A stretch of DNA of 64,000 nt from Altererythrobacter sp. KTW20L (GTDB taxonomy: Bacteria > Pseudomonadota > Alphaproteobacteria > Sphingomonadales > Sphingomonadaceae): assembly GCF_023501975.1 (NCBI RefSeq), contig NZ_JAMFLH010000010.1:62001-126000 (forward strand), given 5' to 3'. Each line of letters begins with the position of its first letter. Within the stretch, counting starts at the first letter, position 1. Under the pieces are notes generated by a model. It made no database searches. It was not told the DNA's origin and saw only the letters and a program-made list of their open reading frames with translations. Made by a program: the position numbers and the translations under genes. Positions 17,909-34,338 of the stretch are shown here, piece after piece.

Positions 17909-17961
17909 TTGATTAAACTTGTGCCCCTGATCCTGTGTCTAGCTCGGTGAAGTGCCCGCGT

Positions 17962-18746: not shown

Positions 18747-21695
18747 GTGGAAATTCTGCTGATTATCGCGCTTGGCGTGGTAGCCTACCAGTTGTGGCAG
18801 CGTGTCACCGCGCTCGAAGCGCAACAGCAGGGCAATCGCGACCTAGACTGGCTGGAACAGCGCCTCGCGCGGGTAGAGGCGCAGTTGCAGGCCGGGCAGC
18901 CTGGCGAAACTGCGGTCGCCACGCCCAAGACAGTTGCGATGCCGGAGCCAGCACCTGAACCCACGCCCGATCCTGCACCATCACTTTGCGCTCCGCGCCC
19001 CGCGATGGCCCGCAAGGCCGAGCCGGAGCCTGGTGCGGTGCTTGAGGAAGTTGCCCTTCCTCCAATGTCTTTCGCCAGCCGCCTGGGGTTCGATTTCGAG
19101 GACTTGTTCGGCCGCCTGCTGCCGATCTGGGCGGGCGGGATCACCCTGGCCGTCGCGGGCTTCTTCATCGTGCGCTATTCGATCGATGCCGGACTGCTGA
19201 CGCCGGAGGTGCGGGTATTCCTCGGCTTTGCTTTCGGGCTTGGCCTGCTGGCAGCAGCCGAAGCGGCTTACCGGTTCGAGGAGCGGGTGGCCGATCCGCG
19301 CGTACGGCAGGCGCTGGCGGGCGCGGGGATCGCCACGCTCTATGCCAGTTTCTACCTTGCCGGGACGATGTACGGCCTGATCGGCCCACTCGCCGCATTT
19401 ATCGGCCTCGCCGCTGTGACCGCTGCCGCAATCGCCCTGTCGTTCCGCTTCGGCATGCCGAGTGCCGTGCTGGGTCTGGTCGGCGGGTTTGCCGCGCCAT
19501 TGCTGGTCGGCGGGGACGAGGCCAACGTGCCGCTGCTCACTACCTACCTTGCGCTGGTGACCGGCGGGCTGATGGTGACATCGCGCCATCGCCGCTGGGC
19601 CTGGATGGGGCTAGCAGCGCTGGGCGGCGGGCTTGGCTGGGGCCTGCTGCTGCTCGGCATGGATGGCAGCCCGGGTGATACCCTGGCCGTGGGCCTGTTC
19701 CTTCTGGTGCTCGGCGTGGCCCTGCCGCTGTGGGCCATGCCTGACATGGGCCGCCACAAGTGGCTGGTGGAAAGCATCGCTGCCGCCATCGCCGCGATCC
19801 AGCTGGCCGCATTGATCAATGCGGCGGGCCACAGCCTGTTGTCGTGGGGCCTGTTCCTGCTCTTGGCGGCCGCGCTGGCCCTGCTCGGCTGGCGCAATGA
19901 ACCGCTGCGCCGGGCGAGCGGCTTTGCCAGCCTGCTGGTGCCACTGATGCTGTATGACTGGCAGGAGCCGCAGGCGTCCACCTTCGCCCTGGTGGCGGGC
20001 AGCTTTGCCGCGATCCTGGCCGGTGTGCCGCTGGCCCTTGCCTGGACGGCGCGGCACAACCGCTTCGACCTGGCGCAATTGTGCGTCGTGGTGCTCGGGC
20101 TGTTTGCTGCCACGGCATGGCAGTTCGGCGCATTCGACGACACGGTGCAATGGGGCGTGGGGCTGGCTGCGCTGGTGCTCGCGCTGTTCCCCGCCGCCGC
20201 GCTGTGGCGCCTGTGGCCCGCAACCGGCGAGAGGGCGAGCCCCGAAGCGCTGGCACTGGCCCTCACCGCCTGGGCCCTGCTGCTGGCTGGCGGGCTATAC
20301 CTGACGCCGGCCTGGGCCGCGCCGCTGGTCGCAGGCTCGCTGGGCGCTGGCATGCTGTTGCTGGTACGGGACCGCCGCGATGACGGCCTGCAGGGCATGG
20401 CGTGGATCGGGGCTTCCGCTGTCTTCGTGCTGCACATCCTCACTGGCGACGCCCTTGTCGAATTTGGTAGGCTGGCGGGTTTCGAAGCTGGCACGGGCGA
20501 TGTGTTTGCGGTCCTGCGCTGGGCCGCCGTGGCTGCCTTCTTCGCAGGCCTGTCATGGCGCGAGCACCGCCGCGGTTGGACCCGTGTGGCCGAAGTGCTG
20601 GCCGCGTGGTTCGCCTATGGTCTGGCCGCACAAGTCCTGCCGTCCGAACCGCTGGCCTGGCTTGCCGCCGTGGCTGCCATGGCCTGCGCCCTTGCCCTGC
20701 GTGAACGGCGCGCGGCGCAGGTGGCATTTGCCGTCATTGCAGGCCTATGGGCCCTGGCTCCCGGCGTGGAATGGCTGATGGGCGCCTTCCCGGGGCTGGC
20801 GGGCGATCCGGTGCTGGCGACCCGGCTTCCCGGCGTGCGGGAGACCGCGCTCTACCTGCTGCCTTTCCCAGCGGCGCTGGCCGTTCTGCTTTGGGCCAAT
20901 GCGGACCGGCTGGACAAGGTGAAAGAGGGCCTGCCGTTGTTGCCAGCGCTGGCCATGGTCGTGCCGGTGCATATCGTTTTCAAGCAGGTGTTCGGCCTGG
21001 CTGATTTCGCGGACTTCACGAGCCTCGGCCTGGCAGAGCGGACGGTATGGCAGGTCCTGCTGGCTGGTCTCGCCTTCGCGGCATGGAGCCTGCGCCAGCG
21101 GTTTGCCGCAGAGGCACCCTTCGCAGCCGCGCTGGCCATGCTTGCTGCGCTGCACTGGCTGGTGTTCACCCTGCTGCTGCACAACCCGCTGTTCGATGCC
21201 CAGGCAGTCGGCCCCGCGCCGGTCGCCAACCTGTTGCTGCCAGCCTATGGTCTGCCGATTGCCGCGCTGCTGTGGTGGCGGGCAAAGCTCGGCCCGGCAG
21301 CAGCGCGGCCTGCCCTGCTGATCGACGCGGCGGTGATGCTGCTTGTTACCCTGCTGGCGATCAGCCTGCTGCGGCAGGTGTTCTCCGGCTCGCTGCTGCG
21401 AGCCGTGCCGATGGGCCAGACCGAGGACCTGTTGCGCTCGCTGACCGGCATCGTGCTGGCCATCGGCTTCCTGTGGTGGGGCGCGAAGCAGGGCTTGCGC
21501 AACTGGCGGCTTGGTTCGCTAGTGCTGATGCTGCTGGCCGTGCTCAAGGTGTTCCTGGTCGATGCCGCCGATCTTGAGGGCCTTGCGCGGATCGCCAGCT
21601 TCGTGGCGCTGGGCTTCAGCCTGATCGGGATCGGGTGGTTCTACAGCCGCCAGTTGAAAGCCGCCGCGCCGCCAGCCATCACACCCGGCAGCTGA
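18747..21695 (+). CDS. DUF2339 large polytopic membrane protein
   Basis: A 982-residue protein of the DUF2339 family. A short N-terminal helix (about residues 1-18) and a coiled, Pro/Ala/Glu-rich stretch (25-105) are followed by roughly 25 or more hydrophobic segments to the end. The conserved entry to the membrane part is DLFGRLLPIWAGGITLAVAG. GTG at 18747 is preceded by AGGGGAGGGG. The family is predicted to lie in the inner membrane and has no established function. It ends by overlapping the convergent tannase-like gene by 17 bases. Confidence 0.85.
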   Translation: MEILLIIALGVVAYQLWQRVTALEAQQQGNRDLDWLEQRLARVEAQLQAGQPGETAVATPKTVAMPEPAPEPTPDPAPSLCAPRPAMARKAEPEPGAVLEEVALPPMSFASRLGFDFEDLFGRLLPIWAGGITLAVAGFFIVRYSIDAGLLTPEVRVFLGFAFGLGLLAAAEAAYRFEERVADPRVRQALAGAGIATLYASFYLAGTMYGLIGPLAAFIGLAAVTAAAIALSFRFGMPSAVLGLVGGFAAPLLVGGDEANVPLLTTYLALVTGGLMVTSRHRRWAWMGLAALGGGLGWGLLLLGMDGSPGDTLAVGLFLLVLGVALPLWAMPDMGRHKWLVESIAAAIAAIQLAALINAAGHSLLSWGLFLLLAAALALLGWRNEPLRRASGFASLLVPLMLYDWQEPQASTFALVAGSFAAILAGVPLALAWTARHNRFDLAQLCVVVLGLFAATAWQFGAFDDTVQWGVGLAALVLALFPAAALWRLWPATGERASPEALALALTAWALLLAGGLYLTPAWAAPLVAGSLGAGMLLLVRDRRDDGLQGMAWIGASAVFVLHILTGDALVEFGRLAGFEAGTGDVFAVLRWAAVAAFFAGLSWREHRRGWTRVAEVLAAWFAYGLAAQVLPSEPLAWLAAVAAMACALALRERRAAQVAFAVIAGLWALAPGVEWLMGAFPGLAGDPVLATRLPGVRETALYLLPFPAALAVLLWANADRLDKVKEGLPLLPALAMVVPVHIVFKQVFGLADFADFTSLGLAERTVWQVLLAGLAFAAWSLRQRFAAEAPFAAALAMLAALHWLVFTLLLHNPLFDAQAVGPAPVANLLLPAYGLPIAALLWWRAKLGPAAARPALLIDAAVMLLVTLLAISLLRQVFSGSLLRAVPMGQTEDLLRSLTGIVLAIGFLWWGAKQGLRNWRLGSLVLMLLAVLKVFLVDAADLEGLARIASFVALGFSLIGIGWFYSRQLKAAAPPAITPGS

Positions 21696-23310
21696 AGCTT
21701 GCCGCATCGGCCGGATCACCGCCGGTATAGCGGGCCACTGCCGGATAGGGGCAGAGCGGGCGCGACATGCCGGGCATCGCCGCGCCGGTTGCCACGATCC
21801 GTTCGGGCGCTTCGCCGCGTTCTACCCAGCCGACAATGGCATCGAGCATCTCGAACCGGTCGGTCGCCTCGCCGCCATTGCAGTGGAGCATGCCGGGCAC
21901 GGTGAACAGCTTGACCGCCTCTGCCGCGCCGGGTCCGGTGGCTTCCAGCATGTCCTCATACCAGCGGGCGATGTGCGGAGTGGCCATGCCCTGGTCCGAC
22001 ATGCCGTTATAAACGATCATCTTGCCGCCCAGTACGAAGGTGGACAGGAAAGGGCTGTCCCCATCGCCCATGCCACCCTGGTGGCGGATCCGGTCGAGCA
22101 TGTCATCTAGGTCATAGGGCGCGAGCGGGTCCCAGTCCGGATCGGGCGGGGTGAGCTGGAGATAGCGGAACTGGCCGAGGCCGAGCGAACTGTCGGCCGA
22201 ATTGGGCTGGCCGGTCTCGCTGGTGCCCAGCCGCATCCCGCGCCAGGCGCTGGACGCAATGCCGGTGTCAAAGGTGAACGGGCCGTAGATGTGCTGGCCC
22301 CCAGCCGTGCGCGGACCCTGCATCAAGTCATCCAGCACGCCCACCTGGCCTTCGCTCAGGCAGCTATCGGTCTTGGCGGCGCTGCATTGCAGCTGGCGCG
22401 GGTGGAAGGAACAGCCCTGCCAGTCGTTGATCATGCCATCGGCCAGGCCATCCAGCGCATCGCATTGGTCCAGCACTGCACTGCGCACCAGTTGCAGGTC
22501 AGTGTCGGTGAAGGCGCGGGAATAGACCGGCCGGCCATCGGCATCGCGCGGGGCGATGCGGGCGACGACCGACATGCTCCAGACCTGGCCCAGCGCCAGG
22601 CGTGAGAAGCTCATCGCCGGATCGCCTGCAACGATGCCATCGTATTCCAGCGGCAGCCGCTGCGAGGCCACCAGCGCCTGGCGGCCACCGTTGGAACAGC
22701 CGACGAAATAGGAATAGTCTGGTGCGGTGCCATAGAACACGCTCACCAGCCGCTTCGCCTCGTCGGTCACCTTGTCGAGCGCGTTGTAGGCGTAATCGGT
22801 GCGGGCCTGCTGATCGAGGCCGAAGGTCGCATCGACGATCGAGCCAGCATGCCCGCTGTCGGTCGAGACCACGGCGAACCCGCGGGCAAGTGCGGGCCGG
22901 CCGGACGAATTGGCAATGTTGCCGACCGCCGCCTGGACCACGCCATCAAGCCCGCCGCCGCCCTGGAACAGGAACCGCCCGTTCCATTCCGCAGGCAGGC
23001 GCAGTTCGAAACCGATGGCGAATTCGCGTCCGCCCGCACCGATCCGCCGGTCGATCGCGCCGCTTACCAGGCAGTGTTCGGGCAGGATGGCGGGCGAGGC
23101 TCCGGGCGGGGCGGGTGCGGGGCCTGTGGGCACAAGTTCGGCACGGATCACTTCGACGCCGGGCCGCACCAGTTGCGCCATGGAAGCGCATTGTGCGGCG
23201 GGGTCGGCCACCGGTGCTGGCGTGGACGGGCCTTGCGCCATGGCCAGCAGCGATGCACCGCAGGCCAGGACTGCCGCGCCCGACAAGGCACCCTTGTATG
23301 CCGGATTCAT
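21679..23310 (-). CDS. tannase / feruloyl esterase family hydrolase
   Basis: A 543-residue secreted or periplasmic esterase. Residues 1-25 are a signal peptide (MNPAYKGALSGAAVLACGAS). The nucleophile elbow GCSNGGR (204-210, Ser206 with adjacent Cys205) and the late LHCNGG provide the CS and HC parts of the CS-D-HC motif of tannases and fungal feruloyl esterases. STDSGHA (149-155) is also typical. It should cleave an aromatic acid ester, with the exact ester unknown. ATG 23310 precedes the signal peptide and has GGGAGG upstream. A LacI-type palindrome lies 93 bases upstream, shared with the divergent mmgE/prpD-like gene. Confidence 0.9.
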   Translation of the reverse strand: MNPAYKGALSGAAVLACGASLLAMAQGPSTPAPVADPAAQCASMAQLVRPGVEVIRAELVPTGPAPAPPGASPAILPEHCLVSGAIDRRIGAGGREFAIGFELRLPAEWNGRFLFQGGGGLDGVVQAAVGNIANSSGRPALARGFAVVSTDSGHAGSIVDATFGLDQQARTDYAYNALDKVTDEAKRLVSVFYGTAPDYSYFVGCSNGGRQALVASQRLPLEYDGIVAGDPAMSFSRLALGQVWSMSVVARIAPRDADGRPVYSRAFTDTDLQLVRSAVLDQCDALDGLADGMINDWQGCSFHPRQLQCSAAKTDSCLSEGQVGVLDDLMQGPRTAGGQHIYGPFTFDTGIASSAWRGMRLGTSETGQPNSADSSLGLGQFRYLQLTPPDPDWDPLAPYDLDDMLDRIRHQGGMGDGDSPFLSTFVLGGKMIVYNGMSDQGMATPHIARWYEDMLEATGPGAAEAVKLFTVPGMLHCNGGEATDRFEMLDAIVGWVERGEAPERIVATGAAMPGMSRPLCPYPAVARYTGGDPADAASFSCRV

Positions 23311-23402
23311 CGCTTCACCCTCCCGAGGCTCTATCATTATCGCAGCGAACAATACCGCAGGCGAAGCGCCCGTCCAGCAGGCGATTTGCCTGCGGTGCGA
23401 CG

Positions 23403-23416
23403 TGTAAGCGCTTGCA
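23403..23416. promoter_or_regulatory. LacI-family operator 1 (tannase / MmgE gap)
   Basis: The 14-mer TGTAAGCGCTTGCA, a near-perfect palindrome around the central CG that marks LacI-family operators. It lies between two divergent genes, 93 bases from one start and 49 from the other. Identical at 30878-30891. Confidence 0.75.
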
Positions 23417-23464
23417 AGGGTTGGAGCGGAGCCATATTGCCACTGTGCAAGGAGAGCGGTCCCC

Positions 23465-24856
23465 ATGGGTAAATCCGAGACGCAAGACGATGTGACGATG
23501 CAACTGGCCGGGCTCTATGCCAGGCTCGACCATGACGGCTTGAGCCCCGGGACGGTCCATGCGGCGAAGCGGGTCCTGCTCGATGCGACCGGTGTCATGC
23601 TGGGGGCCAGCGGCATGGTGCGCGAGGTGGATGGTTTTGTCAGCCTCGCCCGCGCCATGGGCGATGGGGCGTGCAGCGTGCTTGGGACAGGCTATGGCGC
23701 ATCGCCGGTCATGGCAGCCTTGGCCAACGGGGCAATGGCCCATGCGCTGGACTATGAAGACGCCTTCGATCTAGCCCCCGGCCATCCCAACGCCAGTCTT
23801 GTTCCTGCGCTGATTGCCCTGTCCCAGTTTCGTGGACCGGTAAGCGGGCCGCGCTTCCTCGCCGCGATGGTTGCGGGATGCGACATGGCCTGCCGCATGG
23901 GCCTTGCCCTGCAGCAAAAGATGGAAGTGGGGGGCTGGTATCCTCCGCCCATCCTTGCTGGCCACGGGGCTGCCCTTGGCGCCGCGCACCTGCTCGGGCT
24001 GGACGCGCGGCAGATGGCCGATGCCCTATCGCTGAGCCTGTGCCAGGTGACCATGCCGGGCGAGATCAAGTATTCCGCCCGCACCGTGATCCGCGCTGTC
24101 CGCGAGGCCTTTCCTGCCCAGGCGGCGGTCCAGGCGGCGCTGCTGGCACAGCAGGGGCTGGCCGGGTTCGAGCAACCGCTGGAGGGCAAGGGAGGCTTCT
24201 ATGCGCTCTACGCCGGCGGAAAGTTCGACCGTGAGGTGCTGCTCGCGCCGCTTGGCGACAGCTTCTGGATCGAACACCTGACTTTCAAGCCCTGGCCCAG
24301 TTGTCGGGGCACGCACCCCTTTATCGAGATGGCATTGGCATTGGTGGCGGAACACGGATTTGCTGTCGGCGAGATCAATCAGGTCAGGGTGGGGCTGGGG
24401 CCGATGCAGCGGATGCTGGTGGAGCCCGCCGTACGCAAGGCTGCCCCCGCTGTGGCTATCGATGCCAAGTTCTCCATCCCGTTCTGCACCGCTTCGGCCC
24501 TCGTCAACCGGAGCATCGGACTTGACAGTTTTGGACTGGACCACTTGCGCGATCCGGCAGTCCTGGCGCTGGCGCGTAAGGTGGAATTCCACCAGCCGGC
24601 CGGGGCAGAAGCTTGGCGCGGCGATGCCGGGACGCTGGAAATTGCCCTTAAGGATGGGCGCCGGTTCCACGCTGCCCTCGACCGTGCCCGCGGCACCGCC
24701 GACAATCCGCTGAGCGATGCACAGATGATCGCCAAGTTCACCGACTGCGCAACGCGCGCGGCCATGCCGCTGTCGGTGGGCGAGGCGCAGGATCTTGCAG
24801 GCAGGATACTGGCGCTGGATGATTGCGCCGATGTCGGCGCGCTGTTCCGGCGCTAG
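23465..24856 (+). CDS. MmgE/PrpD family protein
   Basis: A 463-residue protein of the 2-methylcitrate dehydratase / cis-aconitate decarboxylase fold. Signatures are MAHALDYEDAFDLAPGHPNAS near residue 95-115, GHGAALGAAHLLGLD and the later PWPSCRGTHPFIE, with VAIDAKFSIPFC. The sequence is divergent from PrpD of the methylcitrate cycle and no prpBC genes are nearby, so it probably acts on another hydroxy acid or unsaturated acid released in this cluster. AAGGAG lies about 9 bases before ATG 23465. A LacI-type palindrome is 49 bases upstream. Its stop overlaps the convergent OmpA-like gene by 4 bases. Confidence 0.85.
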   Translation: MGKSETQDDVTMQLAGLYARLDHDGLSPGTVHAAKRVLLDATGVMLGASGMVREVDGFVSLARAMGDGACSVLGTGYGASPVMAALANGAMAHALDYEDAFDLAPGHPNASLVPALIALSQFRGPVSGPRFLAAMVAGCDMACRMGLALQQKMEVGGWYPPPILAGHGAALGAAHLLGLDARQMADALSLSLCQVTMPGEIKYSARTVIRAVREAFPAQAAVQAALLAQQGLAGFEQPLEGKGGFYALYAGGKFDREVLLAPLGDSFWIEHLTFKPWPSCRGTHPFIEMALALVAEHGFAVGEINQVRVGLGPMQRMLVEPAVRKAAPAVAIDAKFSIPFCTASALVNRSIGLDSFGLDHLRDPAVLALARKVEFHQPAGAEAWRGDAGTLEIALKDGRRFHAALDRARGTADNPLSDAQMIAKFTDCATRAAMPLSVGEAQDLAGRILALDDCADVGALFRR

Positions 24857-25626
24857 AACAGGGCGGTGATTTCCACCCGGCGCTGTGACTGGCCGGGGAT
24901 GCCGTCGGCATCGGGATGGTCGTTCACCTGCGCACCGGTCACTGCATGCGTCTCGATTTCCATGTCCGGAAACAGGCGGCTGAGCGACAGGGCCACCACC
25001 TCGGCCCGCTGCTGCGCCATTTCGGGCCGCTCGGCGATGACCTGGCCAGAGACGGTTTCGGGTTCGCTTGCGGCATAGCCGGTTACCACCAGCCGCCGGG
25101 GGTTGGTCGCGCGGATCCAGTGCGCCGCCTGGTCAAGCAGGTAGTCGCCGTACTGATAGACCACGAAACTGCGGTCCAGTTCGAAGAACAGGGTGAAGGC
25201 CCGCTCGCTGTAAGGGCCGGGGGGCGGAGCGGGCGGATTGGACAAGGGGCTGATGTTGCGCGCCGGACGGACGAACGGGCGGCCGGGATAGCCTTCGGCA
25301 GGCAGCATGTGACGCAGGCACTGCGTTTCCAGCCGCGACGTGCGCACCGGATCGAGCACCGGCGCCCCGCAAGGCCGCTCCGCCGTGTCTGCGGCGGTGC
25401 CTTCCACCAGCACGGCATAGTTCCAGTCCGGCTTGTAGGGCGATTGCGAGACATCCCACTGTTGGCCGGTTGCCGGATCGGTCACCAGCCAGCAGCCCGA
25501 CTTGGCTCCTGCATCGGCATCGCGATAGATCGGACAGGCGATGAACCGCTGGTTGTCTGCCGCCTGTGCCGCCGAGGCCGACATGACCGGCAGGCTCGCC
25601 GCTGCAAGGGCGATCAGGTGCCTCAC
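24853..25626 (-). CDS. OmpA-like periplasmic protein, third gene of TonB-receptor operon
   Basis: A 257-residue exported protein with signal peptide (about 1-22, ending AAQA). The C-terminal half resembles an OmpA/MotB peptidoglycan-binding domain: FFELDRSFVVYQYGDYLLDQAA, LVVTGYAASEPE, RAEVVALSLSRLF and PGQSQRRVEITAL. The N-terminal half (RFIACPIYRDADAGAKSGCWLV) with several cysteines is not recognised. GTG 25626 overlaps the stop of the di-heme cytochrome gene (GTGA), so it is part of that operon. It may anchor or position partner proteins at the outer membrane or cell wall; that is inference. Confidence 0.75.
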   Translation of the reverse strand: MRHLIALAAASLPVMSASAAQAADNQRFIACPIYRDADAGAKSGCWLVTDPATGQQWDVSQSPYKPDWNYAVLVEGTAADTAERPCGAPVLDPVRTSRLETQCLRHMLPAEGYPGRPFVRPARNISPLSNPPAPPPGPYSERAFTLFFELDRSFVVYQYGDYLLDQAAHWIRATNPRRLVVTGYAASEPETVSGQVIAERPEMAQQRAEVVALSLSRLFPDMEIETHAVTGAQVNDHPDADGIPGQSQRRVEITALF

Positions 25627-27158
25627 AGCGCGCTCATCAGGTTGATGAGGTCCTGCCGCTCCTGCGCGGTATAGCCGATGTTGTAGCGCCGCTCGTAATA
25701 GTCGACCACGCCTTCCAGATCCTTGGCCGAACCATTGGCAAAATAGGGCGCGCGGGCGGACAGGCCGCGCAGGCTCTGCAGCGTGATCTTGCCCACATCG
25801 GCGCAGCGCCCGCTGGTGAGGGCGAAGCCGGGATCATAGGTCAGGATCACTCGCCCGTAATGCGGGTGCGGATCCCCGGTGCAGGTGATGCGGAACAGCG
25901 GGAAATCGGGCAGCGGATCGGCAAAGGGCAGGGTGGTGGTGCCAAGATCCACCTGACCCGGTGCCACGTCGTTCCCCATGCGCGTCATATTGTGGCAGAA
26001 CACGCAGGAATTGCGCACCGGGTTGCCGAAGCCCATCGGCGAATTGATGCCCGCGCTGTCGGTGATGAGGAAGGTCTTGTCGCGGAACACCCGCGCCCCG
26101 CGCGCGACGGAGCGCCGCCATTCCAGCTGTTCTGGCGAAAGCCGGGCGGCTTCTTCCGGCGCAATGGTCTCCCATACGGCGAATTCGCTGAACACCGGCA
26201 CCCCGATGGAGCCGAGCGCGCCTGCCTCGCTATCGCGCAGGGTGGCCGGGCCGCCGGTTGCGCCAAGGCTGTCGAGTGCGGTGCCATGCGCGCCCACCTG
26301 TTGGGCGGTGAACACGCTCAGGTTGAAGGCGGTGATGGCCTGGATGGCGGCGGGCGACAGGCGGTCGATCATCTCGCCATGGGTGCTGGCGGCATCTTCC
26401 ATCTGTAGCCGCAGGTTGACCGCGCGGTTGTCCGACATCAGGTTGCCCGACAGGTATTCGCCGGTATCCGGATCGCGCGGCAGGGTCAGACCCTGCTTGG
26501 GATCATAGGCAAAGCCGACGGCCAGTAGGTACTTGAGGTTGGCCAGCGGCCTGGGGCGGCGATAAACCGAGATGCGGCCGTTTTCCGGGCCATATTGCAC
26601 GCCGCTGTTGCAGCCATGGGGATCGCGCACGACCTCGATGGTGAAATCGGGAGTGACGGCGCGCCCTTCGTATTCCGTAATCGGCCAGGGCCGCTCGATG
26701 CGGAACAGGCCGTGCTCGAGCAGCATCGAATGGGACGCTGCCTCGCCCTGCGGCAGCACGGGGCAGTTTGACCCGTCGTAGGCGGCAAAGATCGGGTCCG
26801 TGCCGTTTGTTACCCGCCAGCGCTCCTGGATAGTCTCGACCGCCAGGCTCATGGCGTCAGCGGGCTGGTGGCATGAGATACAGGCCCGGCCATTGGGGCC
26901 CATCGGTTCAAAGAACGGGTGCCCCTTGGTCTGCACCGGGCCGCCGGTAATCAGCGTGCGCAAGATACCGTTGGCGTTGGGATAGTCGAGCACTTCGGGC
27001 CAGGTCCGGTCTTCGCCCGGACCCCACCAGCGATCGTCTGCAGGCCCCTCCGCCCCGGCCAGCCCGGAAAATCCCAGCGCCCCGCAAAGCAGGCCCGCTG
27101 CCAGCAGCAGGACCCGCTTGCCCTTGCGAGGCGCCGGGAGGGAGGAACCGGATTTCAT
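25623..27158 (-). CDS. di-heme cytochrome c, MauG / peroxidase-like
   Basis: A 511-residue exported protein with a cleavable or anchoring hydrophobic N-terminus (about 15-36). Two heme motifs are CISCH (93-97) and CVFCH (385-389). The C-terminal block GKITLQSLRGLSARAPYFAN with YYERRYNIGYTAQERQDL matches the end of bacterial cytochrome c peroxidase / MauG proteins. The wide spacing of the hemes (about 290 residues) is larger than in ordinary peroxidases (about 150), so an insertion separates the two halves. Its ATG overlaps the TonB receptor stop by one base (TGATG). It could oxidise a compound or a partner protein in the periplasm. Confidence 0.8.
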   Translation of the reverse strand: MKSGSSLPAPRKGKRVLLLAAGLLCGALGFSGLAGAEGPADDRWWGPGEDRTWPEVLDYPNANGILRTLITGGPVQTKGHPFFEPMGPNGRACISCHQPADAMSLAVETIQERWRVTNGTDPIFAAYDGSNCPVLPQGEAASHSMLLEHGLFRIERPWPITEYEGRAVTPDFTIEVVRDPHGCNSGVQYGPENGRISVYRRPRPLANLKYLLAVGFAYDPKQGLTLPRDPDTGEYLSGNLMSDNRAVNLRLQMEDAASTHGEMIDRLSPAAIQAITAFNLSVFTAQQVGAHGTALDSLGATGGPATLRDSEAGALGSIGVPVFSEFAVWETIAPEEAARLSPEQLEWRRSVARGARVFRDKTFLITDSAGINSPMGFGNPVRNSCVFCHNMTRMGNDVAPGQVDLGTTTLPFADPLPDFPLFRITCTGDPHPHYGRVILTYDPGFALTSGRCADVGKITLQSLRGLSARAPYFANGSAKDLEGVVDYYERRYNIGYTAQERQDLINLMSAL

Positions 27159-29341
27159 CAGCCGCCGAATTCAACCTTTACGCGCAAGCCGATCGTCCGC
27201 GGCGCACCATAGATGATGCCGCCATCGGCGCTCGAGCTGTTCTGGATCTGCGAGGCGATATAGGTCTTGTTGGTAATGTTGTTGGCAAAGGCTTCCAGCT
27301 TGTAGCTCTCGCCCAGGTCGAAAGTGATGCGGGCATCGAACAGGTCACGCCCGGGCACGATCGTATTGGCCGAAGGGAACGGCGTGGCGATCTGGCTGGA
27401 CAGGTGCGACCACTGGACCCGCGGGGTTACGTCCACATTGCCCAGCATGAAGGTGTACTGGACACCGGCGTTGATCGTCCATTCGGGCGAGAACGGCAGC
27501 GTCGCGCCTTCGGGAACGAAGCGCAGGTTGGTCGGGCAGCCGACATCGGTGCCGGGCAGGTTGGTATCAGAGATACAGGCCGAGTTGGAGAAGGTGGCAT
27601 CGAGGTAGCCGACCCCGAAATTGGCCTGGAACCCGCCGAACTGGGCAGTCGCTTCCAGTTCCGCGCCGATGGATTCGCCCGCCAGCGCGTTCTGGGTAAC
27701 CGGCAGGCCGCCGACCAGGCTGGAGAGCTGGATGTCCTCGTATTCCGACATGAACACCGCACCGTTAAGGCGCAGGTGGCGATCGAGGATTTCAGTCTTG
27801 AAGCCGGCCTCATAGACCGTGTTCTGTTCCGGCAGGAAGTCGGGGGTGTTGGGCGTCAGGTTCACACCGCCAGCCTTGTACCCGCGCGAAGCCGAGACAT
27901 AGACCATGCCGTTGTTGTCGAAGTGGTAGTTGAGGCCCAGCTTGCCTGTCAGCTTCTCCGAAGTGGCGGCGCTGGTCAGTGGCAGGGCGACAGGCGGGCC
28001 GGGGACTGCGAAGCGCGTATAGACCTGCTTGTCCCAGCTGTACCGGCCACCGACCAGCACTTCGAGGTTGTCATTGAGGAAATAGTTAGCCTGACCGAAC
28101 ACCGAATAGGAGGTGTTCACCGCTTCGGCGATGATGTCGCTGTTCGATACGACAAAATCGGTGGTGTTGCGGTTGTCGCGCAGCAGGGTGACGGGGACAT
28201 CTTCGTCCAGCATGAACGCACCGACGACCCATTGCAGCGGGCCGGTACCCAGCGACAGCAGGTTGAATTCGGCGATGAAGGTTTCGAACACTGTATCGCC
28301 GATGCTTACGCGGCCGGGGAAGGTGCGGGTATTCGCGCCGCTGGTCGGCAGGTTGGCGGGTACGCCCACTGCGGTTGCCGTGCGATCGCCATCGGTCTGG
28401 TCGCGGGTATAGCCGTCCTGGAACGACACCAGCGCGCGTGCGCCGACGCTGTCCGACATTTCGTAGTTCACTTCGGCGGACAGGCGGTAGCCGCGCTGGT
28501 TGAGGAACGACAGCGCATCTTCCTGGATCTCGAAAGGATCGGTGCTGACCGTGTCACCACGGCGTTTCACGGCATTGTTGTCACTCTGCATGTCGAACCA
28601 TTCGCCGCGCAGATTGATCGTGCCGCGTCCGTCCGATGTCTGCAGCGCCAGGTTGGCGCGCACTGCATCGAGGTTCATGTTGCCGGGCTGGCTCTGCGCG
28701 TTGGCGGCAATGTTGTCGGTGAAGCTGTCGCGCTCGTCATGCACATAGGCAAGGCGCAGGGCCACGTTCTCTGCGCCGATATTGGCAGTCAGTACAGCGC
28801 GGTAGCGGTTGTAGTTGCCCACGGTGAAATCGCCGCCGAACGACGTGGTGTCGAACTGTGGTGCGGGCGAGCGGACATAGATCGCGCCGCCGGTGGAATT
28901 CTGTCCGCTCAGCGTCCCCTGCGGGCCGCGCAGCACTTCGATCGTGCCGATATCGTAGAAGCTGTGGCCGATGAACTGTTCGTGCGGGATCAGCTGACCG
29001 TCGATGTAGTAGGCGACGCCAGGGTTCGAAGTGGGAGCCGACTGGGCGATGCCAACGCCGCGGATGTTGATATAGGTCGAACGGTTGAAGGTGTTGATCG
29101 CGATCGACGGGGCGACCTGCTGGATGTCGTTGAGAGTGACCACACCGCGCTGGGTCAGCTGCTCGCCCGACAGGACCGTGGCAGAGACGGGCACGTCCTG
29201 CAGGTTCTGTTCGCGCCGCTCGGCAGTGACGAGGATCTGGTCGAGCCCGCCTTCGGGCGCTGAGTCCTGGGCCACGACGGGCATGGCGGTACCGCACAGC
29301 AGGACGGCCAAGGCACTTGCGGAAAATTTGCGACTGTTCAT
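27158..29341 (-). CDS. TonB-dependent outer-membrane receptor
   Basis: A 727-residue receptor. Signal peptide to about residue 24 (ending PVVAQ), a TonB-box-like DQILVTAERREQNLQDVPVS, plug domain with NIRGVG, VAYYIDGQLI, EVLRGPQGTLSGQNSTGGAI, then a 22-strand barrel. It belongs to the group annotated as Fut/FecA-type sphingomonad receptors used for organic substrates rather than only siderophores. It is first in an operon with the di-heme cytochrome and OmpA-like genes. Two LacI-type palindromes lie 50-86 bases upstream, so expression is likely induced by the cluster's substrate. Confidence 0.93.
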   Translation of the reverse strand: MNSRKFSASALAVLLCGTAMPVVAQDSAPEGGLDQILVTAERREQNLQDVPVSATVLSGEQLTQRGVVTLNDIQQVAPSIAINTFNRSTYINIRGVGIAQSAPTSNPGVAYYIDGQLIPHEQFIGHSFYDIGTIEVLRGPQGTLSGQNSTGGAIYVRSPAPQFDTTSFGGDFTVGNYNRYRAVLTANIGAENVALRLAYVHDERDSFTDNIAANAQSQPGNMNLDAVRANLALQTSDGRGTINLRGEWFDMQSDNNAVKRRGDTVSTDPFEIQEDALSFLNQRGYRLSAEVNYEMSDSVGARALVSFQDGYTRDQTDGDRTATAVGVPANLPTSGANTRTFPGRVSIGDTVFETFIAEFNLLSLGTGPLQWVVGAFMLDEDVPVTLLRDNRNTTDFVVSNSDIIAEAVNTSYSVFGQANYFLNDNLEVLVGGRYSWDKQVYTRFAVPGPPVALPLTSAATSEKLTGKLGLNYHFDNNGMVYVSASRGYKAGGVNLTPNTPDFLPEQNTVYEAGFKTEILDRHLRLNGAVFMSEYEDIQLSSLVGGLPVTQNALAGESIGAELEATAQFGGFQANFGVGYLDATFSNSACISDTNLPGTDVGCPTNLRFVPEGATLPFSPEWTINAGVQYTFMLGNVDVTPRVQWSHLSSQIATPFPSANTIVPGRDLFDARITFDLGESYKLEAFANNITNKTYIASQIQNSSSADGGIIYGAPRTIGLRVKVEFGG

Positions 29342-29390
29342 CTGATGGTTCCTCCCTGTCAGGGGCGATCAGACCCCCCTTTTGTGGCGC

Positions 29391-29404
29391 TGATAGCGCT
29401 TGCA
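29391..29404. promoter_or_regulatory. LacI-family operator 2 (TonB receptor promoter, proximal)
   Basis: TGATAGCGCTTGCA, differing at two positions from the 23403 site. It lies 50 bases upstream of the receptor start and 10 bases from a second copy, a spacing that would allow cooperative binding. Confidence 0.7.
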
Positions 29405-29413
29405 TCGGCATTG

Positions 29414-29427
29414 CGCAAGCGCTTGCA
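29414..29427. promoter_or_regulatory. LacI-family operator 3 (TonB receptor promoter, distal)
   Basis: CGCAAGCGCTTGCA; the inner 12 bases GCAAGCGCTTGC are a perfect palindrome. The centre is 23 bases from the centre of the 29391 site, about two helical turns. Confidence 0.7.
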
Positions 29428-29437
29428 GAAGTGCTTC

Positions 29438-30622
29438 TCAGGATTTGCGCAACGCGATTGCCGCGAGCAGGGCTGCGCCCGTCAAGGGAGTCAGCGACAG
29501 ACCAAGGTGCATGGCAGTTTCGGCGGCATAGGGACCGAGCATCCATGCGAGGAATGCGCTGGCCAACATTTGCAGCGCGCCCGCCAGGCTGCTTGCCGTG
29601 CCTTCCAGCCCGGGTTCGCTGGCCAGGATATGGCTGATCGCCGTTGGGCCGGTCAGTCCTGCGGTCAGTCCCAGCAGAACAAGTGGCGCAAGCACCAGCG
29701 GCAGATCGGGATTGCCCCGCCACGACAGCGACAACAGCGTCGCCGCCGCCAGGACACCGAGCACGGTCGAGACCAGCAGTGCGTCGGTCCGCCGCTGGAC
29801 CAGTCCGACCACTCTGGTTCCAGCGATGCTGGCACAGGCGACCAGCAGCAGGCACATGCCCGTCTCGCGCGGGGTCAGGCCATAGCTTCGTTCCAGCAGG
29901 AACGGGGCCGAGCCAAGAAACACGTAGAGGCTGGCGCTGGCGAACGCCATGGCGGAGGTCGCGGCCAGGAACCGGCGGTTCGCCAGCACCCGGCGATAGG
30001 CCACCCGCAGCGTCGGACGATCGGGGAGGTCCGCAGCCGGTCCGGCGCGGGGGATCCTGCGCGAGACCACCAGCACTGCCACAATCCCGGCCAGAGCCAG
30101 CCCGCCCATGATCGCCCGCCAGCCGAACCATTCGGTGACGAGCCCGCCGATTACGGGCGCAATGGCGGGCGATACCAGCACAACAGTCATAAGTGCAGCC
30201 TGCGCCGCCACGGCCCTTTCCGGCGGAACCATGGTGTTGAGCAGGACACGCGCGGTAACCAGGCCTGCAGCCGCGCCTACCGCCTGACCCAGGCGTGCCA
30301 GCAGCAGCACGCCGAGGCTTTCGGCCACCAGGCCCAGCAGGCTTGCCGCCGTATAGATCAGCAGGCCGAGCTGCAGCAGTCGGCGTCGCTCCATCCGGTC
30401 GGCCAGGGGCCCCACCAGCAACTGCCCCGCTCCAAGGCCGATAAGGAATACTCCCACGACCAGTTGCGCCGATGCGACGCCCACGCCCAGCTCGCCCGCG
30501 ATCGAGGGCAGGGCCGGGACCAGCAATTGCGTGGCGAGCGATCCCAGCGCGGCAACGGCCCCTAGCAGCAGGATCGTGCCCCGCAGGGAGGGGGTGGTTC
30601 TTGTCGTCTGGCTGTCGGTCAT
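29438..30622 (-). CDS. MFS exporter, Bcr/CflA family
   Basis: A 394-residue, 12-helix MFS protein. The DHA1 Bcr/CflA pattern is seen in LVPALPSIAGELGVGVASAQ, GAGQLLVGPLADRMERRRLL, and RVLLNTMVPPERAVAAQAAL with GGLVTEWFGWRAIMG. Likely an exporter for a toxic substrate or intermediate of the cluster. ATG 30622 overlaps the TGA of a 35-residue upstream gene (ATGA), so translation is coupled to it. Confidence 0.85.
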   Translation of the reverse strand: MTDSQTTRTTPSLRGTILLLGAVAALGSLATQLLVPALPSIAGELGVGVASAQLVVGVFLIGLGAGQLLVGPLADRMERRRLLQLGLLIYTAASLLGLVAESLGVLLLARLGQAVGAAAGLVTARVLLNTMVPPERAVAAQAALMTVVLVSPAIAPVIGGLVTEWFGWRAIMGGLALAGIVAVLVVSRRIPRAGPAADLPDRPTLRVAYRRVLANRRFLAATSAMAFASASLYVFLGSAPFLLERSYGLTPRETGMCLLLVACASIAGTRVVGLVQRRTDALLVSTVLGVLAAATLLSLSWRGNPDLPLVLAPLVLLGLTAGLTGPTAISHILASEPGLEGTASSLAGALQMLASAFLAWMLGPYAAETAMHLGLSLTPLTGAALLAAIALRKS

Positions 30623-30726
30623 TTGAGGTCGCGCAACTGCCGCCGCACCACCAGGCGCAGCACGGCACAGGTTACCGCGATGGCGAGGATCAATATGGCG
30701 AGGATCAATAATGATGAAGCTGCCAT
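30619..30726 (-). CDS. 35-residue single-span membrane protein
   Basis: A short frame from ATG 30726 to TGA 30619. It encodes a hydrophobic helix (SSLLILAILILAIAVTCAVL) followed by a basic tail (RLVVRRQLRDLK), the pattern of a small N-out/C-in membrane protein. GGTAAGG lies just upstream of the ATG, its stop overlaps the MFS start, and a LacI-type palindrome sits 30 bases before it. A 15-base tandem duplication (30680-30709) repeats the segment LILAI in the helix. I know no family for it; it may assist or regulate the exporter. Confidence 0.65.
   Translation of the reverse strand: MAASSLLILAILILAIAVTCAVLRLVVRRQLRDLK
30680..30709 (+). repeat. 15-bp tandem duplication in small membrane protein gene
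   Basis: ATGGCGAGGATCAAT occurs twice in direct succession (30680-30694 and 30695-30709). In the minus-strand reading it duplicates five residues of the transmembrane helix without breaking frame. Confidence 0.85.
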
Positions 30727-30755
30727 GCCTTACCCAAATCCGCTGAATGGCGGGG

Positions 30756-30769
30756 TGATAGCGCTTACA
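30756..30769. promoter_or_regulatory. LacI-family operator 4 (small protein / MFS promoter)
   Basis: TGATAGCGCTTACA, 30 bases upstream of the 35-residue gene. With the 30878 site it brackets the gap between the divergent exporter and P450 operons; centres are 122 bases apart, compatible with a DNA loop. Confidence 0.7.
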
Positions 30770-30877
30770 TCCGGGTGCGTCGAGCCTTGATCTTGCAGTG
30801 ATGCCAACGGATTGAGAATGGCGACTTTTGGTTGTCCGCTACCGCCTTTCGCCCCCTTGCGCCGCCCTCAGCAAGAC

Positions 30878-30891
30878 TGTAAGCGCTTGCA
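30878..30891. promoter_or_regulatory. LacI-family operator 5 (P450 promoter)
   Basis: TGTAAGCGCTTGCA, identical to the site at 23403. It ends 45 bases before the P450 GTG start. Confidence 0.75.
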
Positions 30892-30936
30892 GGCAGGCTG
30901 CATCTTTGCCTGCAGATTGCTTTTGAGGGGACTTGC

Positions 30937-32229
30937 GTGACCGACGAGGCGACTGGGCCAGCGACTGGGCCAGCGACTGGGCCAGCGACTGGGCCAGCGA
31001 CTGGGCCAGCGACTGGGCCAGCGACTGGGCCAGCGACTGGGCCAGCGTCCGTTGTACCGGACGATTTCGATCCGCATGTAGAAGAGACGTTCGACAGCCC
31101 GCATGTCGAGTACGAGCGGATGCGCGCACAGTGCCCCGTGGCCCATTCCAGCGCCCACGGCGGGTTCTGGGCGCTGACCCGGCATGCCGATATCGTGGCG
31201 GCCGTGACCGACAACGAGACCTTCATCACCTCGAAGATCAATGTCATTCCCAACATGTCGCTCGGCAAGCGGCGGCCGCCGCTGGGCAAGGATCCGCCCG
31301 AGCATACCCCGTTCCGCCGTGCGCTCGACCGGACCTTGCGCAACTCGCGCATCGCTGCGCTGGAACCGCGCTTGCGCGCCCATGCGTCGCGTGAACTGGA
31401 GCGGATGATCGGTGCCGGGCGGGGCGATGTGTCGAGCGATTTTGCCACCATCTATCCGGCCTGGATCGAGGTCGAGTGGCTCAACCTGGAACCATCCAAC
31501 GCGGTGCTCCTGGCCGATGTCGCCCGGCTCTACAATGTCGCCTGGCGCAACGAGAACATGGACGATGTGGCCCGGACCAGCGGCCAGCTCTATGCCGTGG
31601 CACGCGAGGTGGTGGAGGATCGCCAACGCCATCCGCGGCCTGTTGAAAGCGATCCGGCCTCGGCCCTGCTGGCGGAGGAGACCCCGTCCGGCCCGATCCC
31701 GCCGGACTATGTGATCGAGACCATCCGCCAGGTGCTGGTGGTGGGACTGATGGCTCCGCCGCCGCTGTTCGGGGCGATCGTGATCCACCTGATCCGCCAC
31801 CCGGACCTGCAGCAGTACCTGCGGGAAAATCCCGCCCGGATCCCGGCGGCGGTGGAGGAGTTCATCCGGCTCTACTCGCCCTATCGCGGCTTTGCCCGCA
31901 CCACCACGCGCGATGTCGAACTGCACGGCCGGACGATCCCCAAGGACGATCCGGTGACCATGGTCTATGCCTCGGCCAACCGCGACGACGAGGTGTTCGA
32001 CGACCCCCACAGCTTCCGCTTCGACCGCGAGAACATCCGCCAGCACCTCGGGTTCGGGCGCGGCGCGCACCAGTGTGCGGGCGCGGGGCTGGTCCGCCTG
32101 GAGATGCGCATCTTCCTGGAAGAACTGCTCCAGCGGACCACCGGCATGGCGCTTGACGGACCGCTCGAAATGACCAGGCTGCCCGAACTGGGACCGACCA
32201 GCACGCCGGTCACGTTCCAGACCGACTGA
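30937..32229 (+). CDS. cytochrome P450 with N-terminal (ATGP)8 repeat
   Basis: A 430-residue soluble class I-type P450. The heme loop is FGRGAHQCAG (Cys380), the ExxR pair is Glu308/Arg311 in EEFIRLYSP, and PLGKDPPEHTPFRR is the usual C-helix region. Residues 5-36 are eight exact ATGP repeats encoded by a 12-base minisatellite. The I-helix, where the acid-alcohol pair (D/E-T) is expected, instead reads VVGLMAPPPLFGA (268-280). GTG 30937 has GAGGGG upstream. No ferredoxin or reductase gene is adjacent, so redox partners are elsewhere. It starts a two-gene unit with the alpha/beta hydrolase 24 bases downstream. The substrate is unknown. Confidence 0.9.
   Translation: MTDEATGPATGPATGPATGPATGPATGPATGPATGPASVVPDDFDPHVEETFDSPHVEYERMRAQCPVAHSSAHGGFWALTRHADIVAAVTDNETFITSKINVIPNMSLGKRRPPLGKDPPEHTPFRRALDRTLRNSRIAALEPRLRAHASRELERMIGAGRGDVSSDFATIYPAWIEVEWLNLEPSNAVLLADVARLYNVAWRNENMDDVARTSGQLYAVAREVVEDRQRHPRPVESDPASALLAEETPSGPIPPDYVIETIRQVLVVGLMAPPPLFGAIVIHLIRHPDLQQYLRENPARIPAAVEEFIRLYSPYRGFARTTTRDVELHGRTIPKDDPVTMVYASANRDDEVFDDPHSFRFDRENIRQHLGFGRGAHQCAGAGLVRLEMRIFLEELLQRTTGMALDGPLEMTRLPELGPTSTPVTFQTD
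30949..31044 (+). repeat. 12-bp x 8 coding minisatellite in P450 gene
   Basis: Eight perfect head-to-tail copies of GCGACTGGGCCA (96 bases), each encoding Ala-Thr-Gly-Pro. The copies are identical, which indicates recent expansion. A unit length divisible by three means copy-number changes keep the P450 in frame. Confidence 0.97.
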
Positions 32230-32253
32230 CGGGGGCAGGGTGAGGAGGCTTAG

Positions 32254-33201
32254 ATGATCCGTCGCAAGGGTGGCAGGAAACTGCTGGCAGGTTCTGTCGC
32301 ACTGGCTGCACTCCTCTGGTCAGCCCAAGGCGTCGCCCATGTGGAACGGCAGCCGCTCTATGACGGGCCTGCACCGGGTTCGGAAAGCTGGGAACACGAG
32401 CGAGTCGCGATCGAGCGGGATGGTGCCGTGTCGGTCTATAACACCCGCCAGCCGGTCTATGAACTGCTCCTGCCACGGCCCGATCGTGCCAGCGGCGCGG
32501 CCCTCGTCATGCTACCGGGTGGCGGCCTGCGCGTGCTGGGGACGGGAGCCGCGCTGCAGGACGAGATCGACGCCCTGGTGCGCGAAGGGGTGGGCGTGCT
32601 GATGCTGGAATATCGCACCCTGCAATTCAGTCCGGCAGAGCTGGAATGGATGACCGCTCCGCCCCCGCCGCGCGATCCCGCTGATCCGCCTGCTCGCTTT
32701 CCCCGCATGGAAATCGTCAACGGCAATGCCAATCCGGCAGCCGGCACTATCGCCATGACAGACGTGCTCGAACTGGCAACGCAGGATGCCCAGGCCGCGC
32801 TCCGCCTGCTCCACGCGAATGCGGCAGAATGGAATATAGACCCTGACCGGATCGGGGTGATGGGCACTTCGGCCGGTGGCGGGGTGGCTTTCGGCACGCT
32901 GCTCGACCGGCAGGCCGCAGCAGACGAACGGCCCGATTTCCTTGTCTCGATCTTCGGCCCTTCGTTGCAGGATGTTGCAACGTGGGAGGGCGCTCCCCCT
33001 TTGTTCATGGCGGTGGAGGCAGAACACGGAGCGGTGACGGACGGCCTGATCGAAGTGTTCCGCATCTGGAACGCGGCCTACCAGCCGGCCGAACTGCACA
33101 TCTACGACGTGCCCAACTTCACCATGACCGAAAAGCTGTGGGGCCCGCCCCTGTTCGACTGGATGCGCAGTCGCGGTATTCTCCGGGTGACGGGCGACTA
33201 G
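32254..33201 (+). CDS. exported alpha/beta hydrolase with degenerate active site
   Basis: A 315-residue protein with a signal peptide (about 1-28, ending GVAH). The fold is that of acetyl-esterase / acetyl-xylan-esterase-type hydrolases: oxyanion region MLPGGGLRVLG in place of HGGG, nucleophile GTSAGGG with Ser after DPDRIGVM, and DAQAALRLLHANAAEWNID. Where the family has the catalytic Asp (typically DDxxVP) it reads VEAEHGAV, and where the final His (GGHGFG) is expected it reads YDVPNFTMTEK. The activity is therefore doubtful. GGAGG precedes ATG 32254. It is cotranscribed with the P450. Confidence 0.78.
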   Translation: MIRRKGGRKLLAGSVALAALLWSAQGVAHVERQPLYDGPAPGSESWEHERVAIERDGAVSVYNTRQPVYELLLPRPDRASGAALVMLPGGGLRVLGTGAALQDEIDALVREGVGVLMLEYRTLQFSPAELEWMTAPPPPRDPADPPARFPRMEIVNGNANPAAGTIAMTDVLELATQDAQAALRLLHANAAEWNIDPDRIGVMGTSAGGGVAFGTLLDRQAAADERPDFLVSIFGPSLQDVATWEGAPPLFMAVEAEHGAVTDGLIEVFRIWNAAYQPAELHIYDVPNFTMTEKLWGPPLFDWMRSRGILRVTGD

Positions 33202-33241
33202 AGGCCGGCCAGATTTTCACGGCTACCGCGATGTAAGGCCT

Positions 33242-33288
33242 TGCGAAATTTTGCAGGCAGAGGTCGCAATGCATGCAAGGCGATTGCA
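33242..33288. promoter_or_regulatory. possible autoregulatory sites upstream of LacI regulator
   Basis: Two weaker dyads precede the regulator: TGCGAAATTTTGCA (33242-33255) and TGCAAGGCGATTGCA (33274-33288). They share the outer TGC/GCA of the cluster's operators but not the AGCGCT core, so they are weaker candidates. Confidence 0.35.
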
Positions 33289-33339
33289 CCGGGCGCTGGG
33301 CTGGGGCATGTTCCACGGTCACCATGACGCGGAGATAGC

Positions 33340-34338
33340 ATGTCACCGATGACCAGGGCCCCGACGCTGAACGACGTCGCGCGCGAAGCAAATGTATCTG
33401 CCGCCACGGTCAGCCGCTTCCTCAACAATCCCGGCGTGGTGGCAGGAGAGACCGGAACGCGGATCAGCGCTGCGATCGACAAGACGGGCTATATTCCCAA
33501 CGCCCTGGCCGGCGACCTTGCCACCAACAAGAGCCGCATGGTCGCAGTGCTCATACCCTGCCTCGAGAACTCGCTGTTCAACGATATGATCGAGCGCATG
33601 GTCGGAGAGATGACGGCGAGCGGAAACAACGTGATGATCGGGCTGACAGGCACCGGAACCGAACGGACCGACAGCCTGGTACGGGCGGCACTCTCGCGCC
33701 GCGTCGATGCGATCATCGCGACCGGGACCGTCAGCCAGAACGTGATCAACATGGTGGGGCGGAGCCGGACCCTGTTCATCCAGGTGTGGGAACTGCCCGA
33801 GGATCCGGTGGGAGTGGCCATCGGCTTCCGCCACGAGGATGCCGGACGCGACATTGCCCGCTTCCTCGCCTCGCGGGGCTATCTCCGGCCCCATGTGGTG
33901 ACCGCAGAAAGCCCGCGTGCGCGCAGCCGGCGCGACGGCTTTTTTGCCGAATGGGAAGCACTGGGTTTGTCCCTGCCGACCGAATCGATCACCGACATGC
34001 CCACCCGCTTCGGCCACGCCCGGCGGGTCTTCGCCGATGTGCGTCGGCTGGCCGAGCGGCCCGACGTGGTCGTCTGCGGGTCCGACCTCCTGGCCCAGGG
34101 AATCATCGTCGAGGCCCAGGCGGCGGGGCTGCGAGTGCCCGATGACCTCGGGGTGATCGGCTTTGGCAACAATGCCATCTCCGGCGAGATGCGACCCACG
34201 ATCACCACGGTCGATATCGACGGCGCGCGCATCGCCCGCGAAGTGATGGCCGCAATTTCGCGCCACCAGGAAGGCCGCGAATTCACCTCCCGGCGTATCG
34301 ACGCGGGCTTCCGCCTGATCGCCCGCGACAGTGTCTAG
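33340..34338 (+). CDS. LacI/GntR-type repressor, probable local regulator
   Basis: A 332-residue LacI-family protein. The HTH is TLNDVAREANVSAATVSRFL (residues 9-28), the hinge helix PNALAGDLATNKS inserts in the minor groove in this family, and the C-terminal periplasmic-binding-protein-like domain runs from RMVAVLIPCLENSLFND to the end, with VIGFGNN. ATG 33340 has GGAG 8 bases upstream; an ATG three codons later is possible. It lies directly after the P450-hydrolase unit, and five LacI-type palindromes are found in the gaps of the same island. It is the only LacI protein in the window, so assignment of those sites to it is a strong inference. Confidence 0.9.
   Translation: MSPMTRAPTLNDVAREANVSAATVSRFLNNPGVVAGETGTRISAAIDKTGYIPNALAGDLATNKSRMVAVLIPCLENSLFNDMIERMVGEMTASGNNVMIGLTGTGTERTDSLVRAALSRRVDAIIATGTVSQNVINMVGRSRTLFIQVWELPEDPVGVAIGFRHEDAGRDIARFLASRGYLRPHVVTAESPRARSRRDGFFAEWEALGLSLPTESITDMPTRFGHARRVFADVRRLAERPDVVVCGSDLLAQGIIVEAQAAGLRVPDDLGVIGFGNNAISGEMRPTITTVDIDGARIAREVMAAISRHQEGREFTSRRIDAGFRLIARDSV

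Follow-up and report, generated by a model that had tools for sequence, protein, structure and literature searches.

The closest described systems to the locus reported here are the local catabolic regulons of the LacI family, in which a regulator with a helix-turn-helix (HTH) and a Peripla_BP fold is encoded beside its targets, the genes of a sugar pathway, and recognizes a 14-bp palindrome with a central CG. A sphingomonad repressor, PheR of Sphingobium sp. SHPJ-2, offers a second comparison, since its loss raises the expression of both catabolic genes and TonB-dependent receptors (PMC13273656); PheR is nevertheless of the IclR family, has a GCAACG-core operator and governs a phenanthrene pathway. 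We analyzed a stretch of 64,000 nucleotides of Altererythrobacter sp. KTW20L (hereafter the window), which corresponds to C2:62001-126000 in a genome of 3.09 Mb and 35 contigs. An island of 12.66 kb within it (window 21679-34338, C2:83679-96338) has the fold, the palindrome and the regulator position of the LacI regulons, and like PheR appears to place catabolic genes and a TonB receptor under one repressor, whereas its targets are esterases, a cytochrome P450, a TonB receptor and a di-heme protein. We regard it as an apparently undescribed member of the local catabolic LacI regulons.

The regulator gene (33340-34338, forward strand) lies at the island edge and, as an earlier note on this DNA had proposed, encodes a LacI-family protein, with an HTH domain (PF00356, 7.6e-18) and a periplasmic-binding-protein-like domain (PF13377, 3.3e-23). 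The five palindromes listed in that note were all located: TGTAAGCGCTTGCA at 23403-23416, between the tannase and MmgE/PrpD genes, both of which it could serve; TGATAGCGCTTGCA at 29391-29404 and, 23 bp from it, CGCAAGCGCTTGCA at 29414-29427, both belonging to the TonB-receptor operon; TGATAGCGCTTACA at 30756-30769, before a unit formed by a short peptide gene and an MFS transporter; and a second TGTAAGCGCTTGCA at 30878-30891, before the P450-hydrolase unit. Measured to the start codons, the distances are 48 bases for MmgE/PrpD (ATG 23465), 92 for the tannase, 49 and 72 for the TonB receptor (ATG 29341), 29 for the peptide and 45 for the P450 (GTG 30937); thus the interval of 30-93 bases claimed before for all five outward units agrees within one base with the 29-92 found. 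For the tannase the start codon taken is ATG 23310, the longest open reading frame (ORF) beginning at 23466.

These sites are concentrated in the island to a degree that contradicts a similar density throughout the genome, the outcome that the earlier note had named as fatal to its proposal. When up to three mismatches were allowed, the window gave 16 strand-hits against 4.6 +/- 2.4 in 100 shuffles (largest 12). In the whole genome TGNAAGCGCTTNCA with at most one mismatch occurs at 14 places, five of them inside the island, where 0.06 would be expected, and a reversed control pattern gave five forward and five reverse matches (this search counts one palindromic place on both strands). Assuming a uniform spread, the Poisson probability of five of the 14 sites falling within 12.66 kb is about 5e-9. 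Three further sites, at C2:23950, 25268 and 31325, make up a second locus of contig C2, bringing its sites to eight.

Conservation of the operator upstream of orthologous genes, the mark of a LacI-family regulon, was found in the relatives. The family sample comprised 397 genomes, of which 16 gave a LacI match at E <=1e-60 and 13 reached at least 50% identity. With LacI counted at the latter threshold, which left out three weaker matches of 38-46% identity (G144, G193 and G391), it is present in 13 genomes, the P450 in 16 and both in 13, relatedness being ignored. The island looks accessory, because the 11 other genomes listed for the host genus all lack a LacI match. Of 173 plasmid records seven had LacI at 60% identity or more, and six of these were read; the carriers include Croceicoccus marinus, Novosphingobium PP1Y, ES2-1, EMRT-2, THN1 and N. 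aromaticivorans pNL2. Sphingobium jiangsuense and the Novosphingobium metagenome-assembled genome BIN1 came from a contig search that gave four loci, two of which were dropped (one short with lacI cut, the other a 29%-identical Vibrio protein).

Across 20 regions, 703,143 bp in all (our own contig and 19 loci of relatives that carry LacI), we counted 70 sites scoring 11 or 12 out of 12, and 59 of them precede a cluster gene at a distance of -20 to 260 bp from its aligned start, where first-order Markov resampling gave an expectation of 1.3. With our own contig left out the figure is 53 of 62 sites in the 19 loci, so the same operator does stand beside orthologues in related genomes, a check that the earlier note had suggested. 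This count is without G204 and our own contig C1, neither of which has a LacI orthologue; G321 and the Croceicoccus plasmid are a single record, counted once, and the loci are not all independent, G380/EMRT-2, ES2-1/THN1 and G063/G134 being near relatives. Site-gene pairs were most numerous for the P450 (21, counted by aligned start since the island P450 has a longer N-terminus), followed by CapA (15), MFS2 (9), TBDR2 (9), lacI (8) and hyp6627 (7), with fewer for others. An upstream site of 11 or 12 precedes 9/9 island-type TonB receptors, 9/9 transporters of the second MFS type, 11/15 CapA genes and 8/19 lacI genes; the best-conserved targets in relatives are the P450, the MFS transporter, the TonB receptor and CapA. 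In pNL2, read across its origin, three sites stand before MFS/P450, the TonB receptor and CapA. The LacI orthologue of N. aromaticivorans DSM 12444 is SARO_RS20030, and SARO_RS17880-17900, 17925-17930 and 20035 are its predicted targets. At the level of the class a P450 profile was matched in three of 385 genomes, namely the host and two of other families, and in both of the latter a 12/12 site lies between the divergent P450 and lacI genes. The relatives' neighborhoods also contribute CapA with a membrane protein, esterases, a TRAP transporter, coenzyme A (CoA) transferases and a 2-hydroxyacyl-CoA dehydratase-like protein.

The regulon had been described as self-contained, which it is not. 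At C2:25239-26566, 67.6 kb from the island, there is a copy of the island P450 together with its operator, aligning in two pieces at 97.9% over 143 bp (operator included) and 98.7% over 1228 bp; since the duplication includes the operator, those of the two P450 copies count as one event. Directly after the copy come 32 bp resembling the end of lacI at 87.5%, and then a CapA-type gene. Because the identity of this lacI stub is lower than that of the P450, the arrangement suggests an older split of the cluster in which the P450 was later homogenized. The two other sites of the locus precede a DUF819 membrane protein gene, by 24 or 102 bp depending on the start chosen, and a gene for a vanillyl-alcohol-oxidase-like protein, by 125 bp. 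The pairing with DUF819 recurs in genome G102, where the orthologue is 41% identical and the site lies 178 bp before the matched stretch. Moreover, a block of genes found next to the cluster in relatives is located here on contig C1 (~C1:262700-279900), beside a GntR gene.

On the model that we favor, the LacI protein would be a local repressor that very probably controls the five units of the island. Without inducer, a dimer would occupy the 14-bp palindrome shortly before each start codon, blocking MmgE/PrpD, the tannase, the TonB receptor-diheme-OmpA operon, the 35-residue peptide with its MFS transporter, and the P450 with its hydrolase; a ligand at the sugar-binding-like domain would free it from the DNA. 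The regulon would extend to the P450 copy and the DUF819 protein at the second locus, and probably to CapA and the vanillyl-alcohol-oxidase-like enzyme. Its products would most likely bring an ester across the outer membrane, whereupon the tannase-type and other esterases could split it and the parts, oxidized or rearranged, would feed a hydroxycinnamate/4-hydroxybenzoate pathway.

As to the substrate itself, plant esters of the hydroxycinnamate or 4-hydroxybenzoate type are our tentative proposal, to which we give appreciably less than an even chance. It is suggested by the neighbors of the cluster in Croceicoccus marinus and G098, a p-hydroxycinnamoyl-CoA hydratase/lyase and an acetate-CoA-ligase-family protein, by a hydroxycinnamoyl-CoA hydratase near it in G063, G134 and G409, and by pobA, which lies no more than 30 kb from lacI in five of the 12 LacI genomes searched (two of the five from one genus); in our genome pobA lies ~1.5 kb past the C1 block and a p-hydroxycinnamoyl-CoA hydratase at C1:226232. 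The proposal is held at this level because the aromatic neighbors vary, with cat and 3-hydroxyphenylpropionate genes on pNL2 and ring-hydroxylating dioxygenases in ES2-1, and because the tannases of relatives, at 31-35% identity, are not orthologues of the island enzyme, so that the ester cleaved may not be the same in all species. A substrate that is no phenolic ester at all (a terpenoid, a lactone or something polyester-like), with aromatic genes nearby because such islands collect them, comes close to an even chance: this would suit the variable neighbors just named, as well as the several unrelated hydrolases, the weak PETase-like and CocE-like proteins and the TRAP and CoA-transferase genes seen in relatives, while the hydratase or pobA genes near the cluster in several relatives and the vanillyl-alcohol/eugenol-oxidase-like gene behind a second-locus site speak for phenolic esters.

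Regarding the sense of control, the LacI protein might be an activator or a dual regulator rather than a repressor, which we consider improbable. A sigma-70 scan found one weak match, fewer than in shuffles, and placed no promoter, which leaves room for activation; yet the sites stand 29-92 bp before the start codons, where a roadblock repressor would sit, and most local LacI-family proteins repress. A still smaller probability attaches to the idea that the sites belong to another LacI-family protein, such as a global catabolite-type regulator, the island LacI being a bystander. The genome does have three LacI-HTH genes, the other two on contigs C31 and C35, and AAGCGCTT cores are common to many LacI-family operators; moreover, 12/12 palindromes occur in three of 18 genomes without this LacI, as well as in 10 of 12 with it. 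Against this, eight of the 14 genome sites fall in two loci of C2, and among relatives the sites go with this LacI and its P450: in G183, G032 and G204, which have the P450 and not this LacI, the 20 kb read around each P450 contain no site scoring 11 or higher (the P450 of G183 and that of G032 have a GntR-type gene as neighbor). That the palindromes arose by chance or from repeats, as the duplicated P450 operators might hint, has a negligible probability given the enrichment in window and genome and the footprint in relatives, conservation in other genera contradicting it. There is, then, strong evidence from comparison that the island LacI protein owns the palindromic sites. As a separate observation, the 12/12 palindrome at G319:C5 adjoins a different LacI-family gene.

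Several results do weigh against assigning the whole cluster to this repressor. Besides the 12/12 palindromes in genomes without this LacI, a looser pattern, TGNNAGCGCTTNCA, is not confined to LacI genomes, being present in 27 of the 30 tested. Upstream sites are rare in relatives for MmgE (2/12), the di-heme gene (1/11), the tannase (0/8) and the other, L056-type TonB receptor (0/8); since the low-scoring genes mostly have a cluster gene of like orientation before them, they may be transcribed by readthrough from upstream genes, or they may escape control. Eleven of the 70 sites are not upstream of scored genes, three preceding DUF819 or the oxidase and others being intragenic, and one of the 59 gene-upstream sites sits at the very start of a gene. 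No good site lies upstream of the island lacI, where a weak palindrome, TGTAAGGCCTTGCG (33232-33245, 9/12, 94 bp upstream), could possibly mediate weak autoregulation. Finally, an 11/12 site at C1:282626 lies between divergent pobA and MFS genes (both named by eye) adjoining the GntR/TRAP/CoA-transferase block; pobA was rejected as a conserved regulon member, as none of 17 other pobA upstream regions has a site of 11 or more.

The best NCBIfam model for the LacI protein is the HTH-type regulator GntR, at 205 of 400 bits and so far below the cut-off, and its best solved relatives are 3e3m and 3h5o. Among the papers listed by word searches of the open-licence literature there was no description of the cluster or its operator, in line with the earlier remark that this catabolic-looking LacI regulon is not recognizable as a described pathway. 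Abscisic-acid, steroid and estradiol catabolism were considered as described equivalents and set aside, there being no matching cluster in the literature searched, and the cluster is not mentioned in the sections seen of papers on LigR, spaceflight fitness, alphaproteobacterial P450s and lignin dimers. An apparently undescribed pathway, found in 13 of the 397 family genomes, of several genera, with the lignin model strain Novosphingobium aromaticivorans among the carriers, is thus given a regulator, a defined operator and a list of genes. The regulon would unite CapA-type, di-heme/OmpA, MmgE/PrpD and DUF819 proteins into one function, and its substrate could be sought with one reporter against plant phenolic esters. 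It also points to a P450 clade whose site of oxygen activation is unusual.

The feature missing from this P450 (30937-32229, forward strand; identified by Pfam) is the least expected part of the regulon. The heme-ligand motif FGRGxHxC is present in 22/22 P450 sequences, and C380, E308 and R311 are invariant in 20, whereas the I-helix acid-alcohol pair is replaced by a hydrophobic residue and Ala followed by an invariant Pro in 22/22 and in 19/19 relatives (overlapping sets, four genomes being new); VVGxxAP and PYRGFART are likewise found in all 22 and all 19. In the island protein M272-A273-P274 stands opposite the I-helix acid and threonines in five alignments to solved P450s, two of which have a one-residue gap just before these residues. 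The partner in 5vws also lacks the acid but keeps the Thr, and P450 22yx, with Val-Pro where ours has Ala-Pro, lacks the Thr but retains an acidic residue (Glu). In a structure model (mean predicted local distance difference test, pLDDT, of 83) the fold is that of a normal P450 and the I-helix breaks at residue 273. The invariant R264 and R317 would lie in or beside stretches expected to face the substrate. P450s without the pair, the CYP152 enzymes among them, are known as peroxygenases in which an acid of the substrate takes its place (PMC10988616).

Membership in CYP152, whose I-helix carries Arg-Pro, was rejected, since the island protein has Ala-Pro and no entry named CYP152 was among the best 60 sequence and best 50 fold matches listed. 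The annotations read for the clusters of relatives name neither a ferredoxin nor a ferredoxin reductase, the small ORFs of the island not having been scanned for one. The clade may work without the acid-Thr pair, perhaps driven by peroxide or assisted by the substrate and acting on an esterase product that bears a carboxylate, or as a redox-neutral isomerase or dehydratase, a proposal we consider doubtful. The island and copy proteins differ by few residues. Near the N-terminus a perfect 12-bp repeat array (window 30949-31047) encodes ATGP repeats, a variable-number repeat within the gene with about eight units in the island P450 and about three in the copy (C2:25327 onward).

With respect to the other products, Pfam supported the earlier calls of tannase, MmgE/PrpD, TonB receptor, MFS transporter, P450, hydrolase and LacI; for the proteins called di-heme and OmpA-like, two CxxCH motifs were seen in the former and neither has a Pfam match. 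The tannase/feruloyl-esterase family protein (21679-23310, reverse strand; Pfam Tannase 1.7e-104) has MHETase as its closest solved relative (1.7e-105), with which it shares the family and the catalytic Ser, His and Asp regions. MHETase activity was rejected by eye, as Ser and Leu align where MHETase has its substrate-binding Arg and Phe (presumably R411 and F415), and we therefore make no claim of mono(2-hydroxyethyl) terephthalate hydrolysis. The MmgE/PrpD protein (23465-24856, forward strand), with relatives in 12 regions of other genomes, is closest among solved proteins to IDS-epimerase and cis-aconitate decarboxylases.

The alpha/beta hydrolase (32254-33201, forward strand) had been called degenerate. 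A His at the usual place was indeed not seen, but the Ser elbow GTSAGG is kept. The orthologue in G102 (61% identical) has the same residue state, and relatives in G098 (46%) and G321 (44%) lie behind an operator of their own, so the gene is judged from these comparisons to be conserved rather than decaying; G098 was left out of the residue alignment, which had taken a wrong stretch of a read-through ORF.

The TonB-dependent receptor (27158-29341) is followed on the reverse strand by the di-heme protein (25623-27158) and the OmpA-like protein (24853-25626), whose genes occur together in relatives, mostly beside the TonB receptor. The di-heme protein has a remote, MbnH-type similarity, far below the family cut-off, and its structure model (mean pLDDT 55) gave no useful structural match. 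The MFS transporter (29438-30622, reverse strand) is Bcr/CflA-like, under the subfamily cut-off. Its proposed 35-residue partner exists as an ORF at 30619-30726 on the same strand, encoding a hydrophobic peptide and overlapping the MFS start by 4 nt; ES2-1, EMRT-2 and THN1 have no room for it (site-to-MFS-start gaps of 47-58 bp). A 15-bp perfect tandem duplication (ATGGCGAGGATCAAT) lies within this ORF, at window 30680-30710.

Some further observations concern the surroundings. The vanillyl-alcohol/eugenol-oxidase-like flavin adenine dinucleotide (FAD) enzyme of the second locus (C2:31464-33428, 654 aa) shares its reading frame with a C-terminal MarR domain, as either a natural fusion or two joined genes. 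On the same contig, C2:28820-31085 holds an incomplete second FAD-oxidase-like gene beside a short RPE65/carotenoid-oxygenase-like gene, with transposase-like ORFs (recognized by eye) in the wider region, and looks like a decaying catabolic patch. C1:250000-289999 encodes a 2-hydroxyglutaryl-CoA dehydratase D-component-like protein, two CoA transferases, a TRAP transporter and CapA, a cluster kept in several sphingomonads; dehydratases of the HGD type are usually oxygen-sensitive. A third GMC oxidoreductase is encoded at window 40647-42212, ~45% identical to the pair adjoining the second locus (C2:18994-22232).

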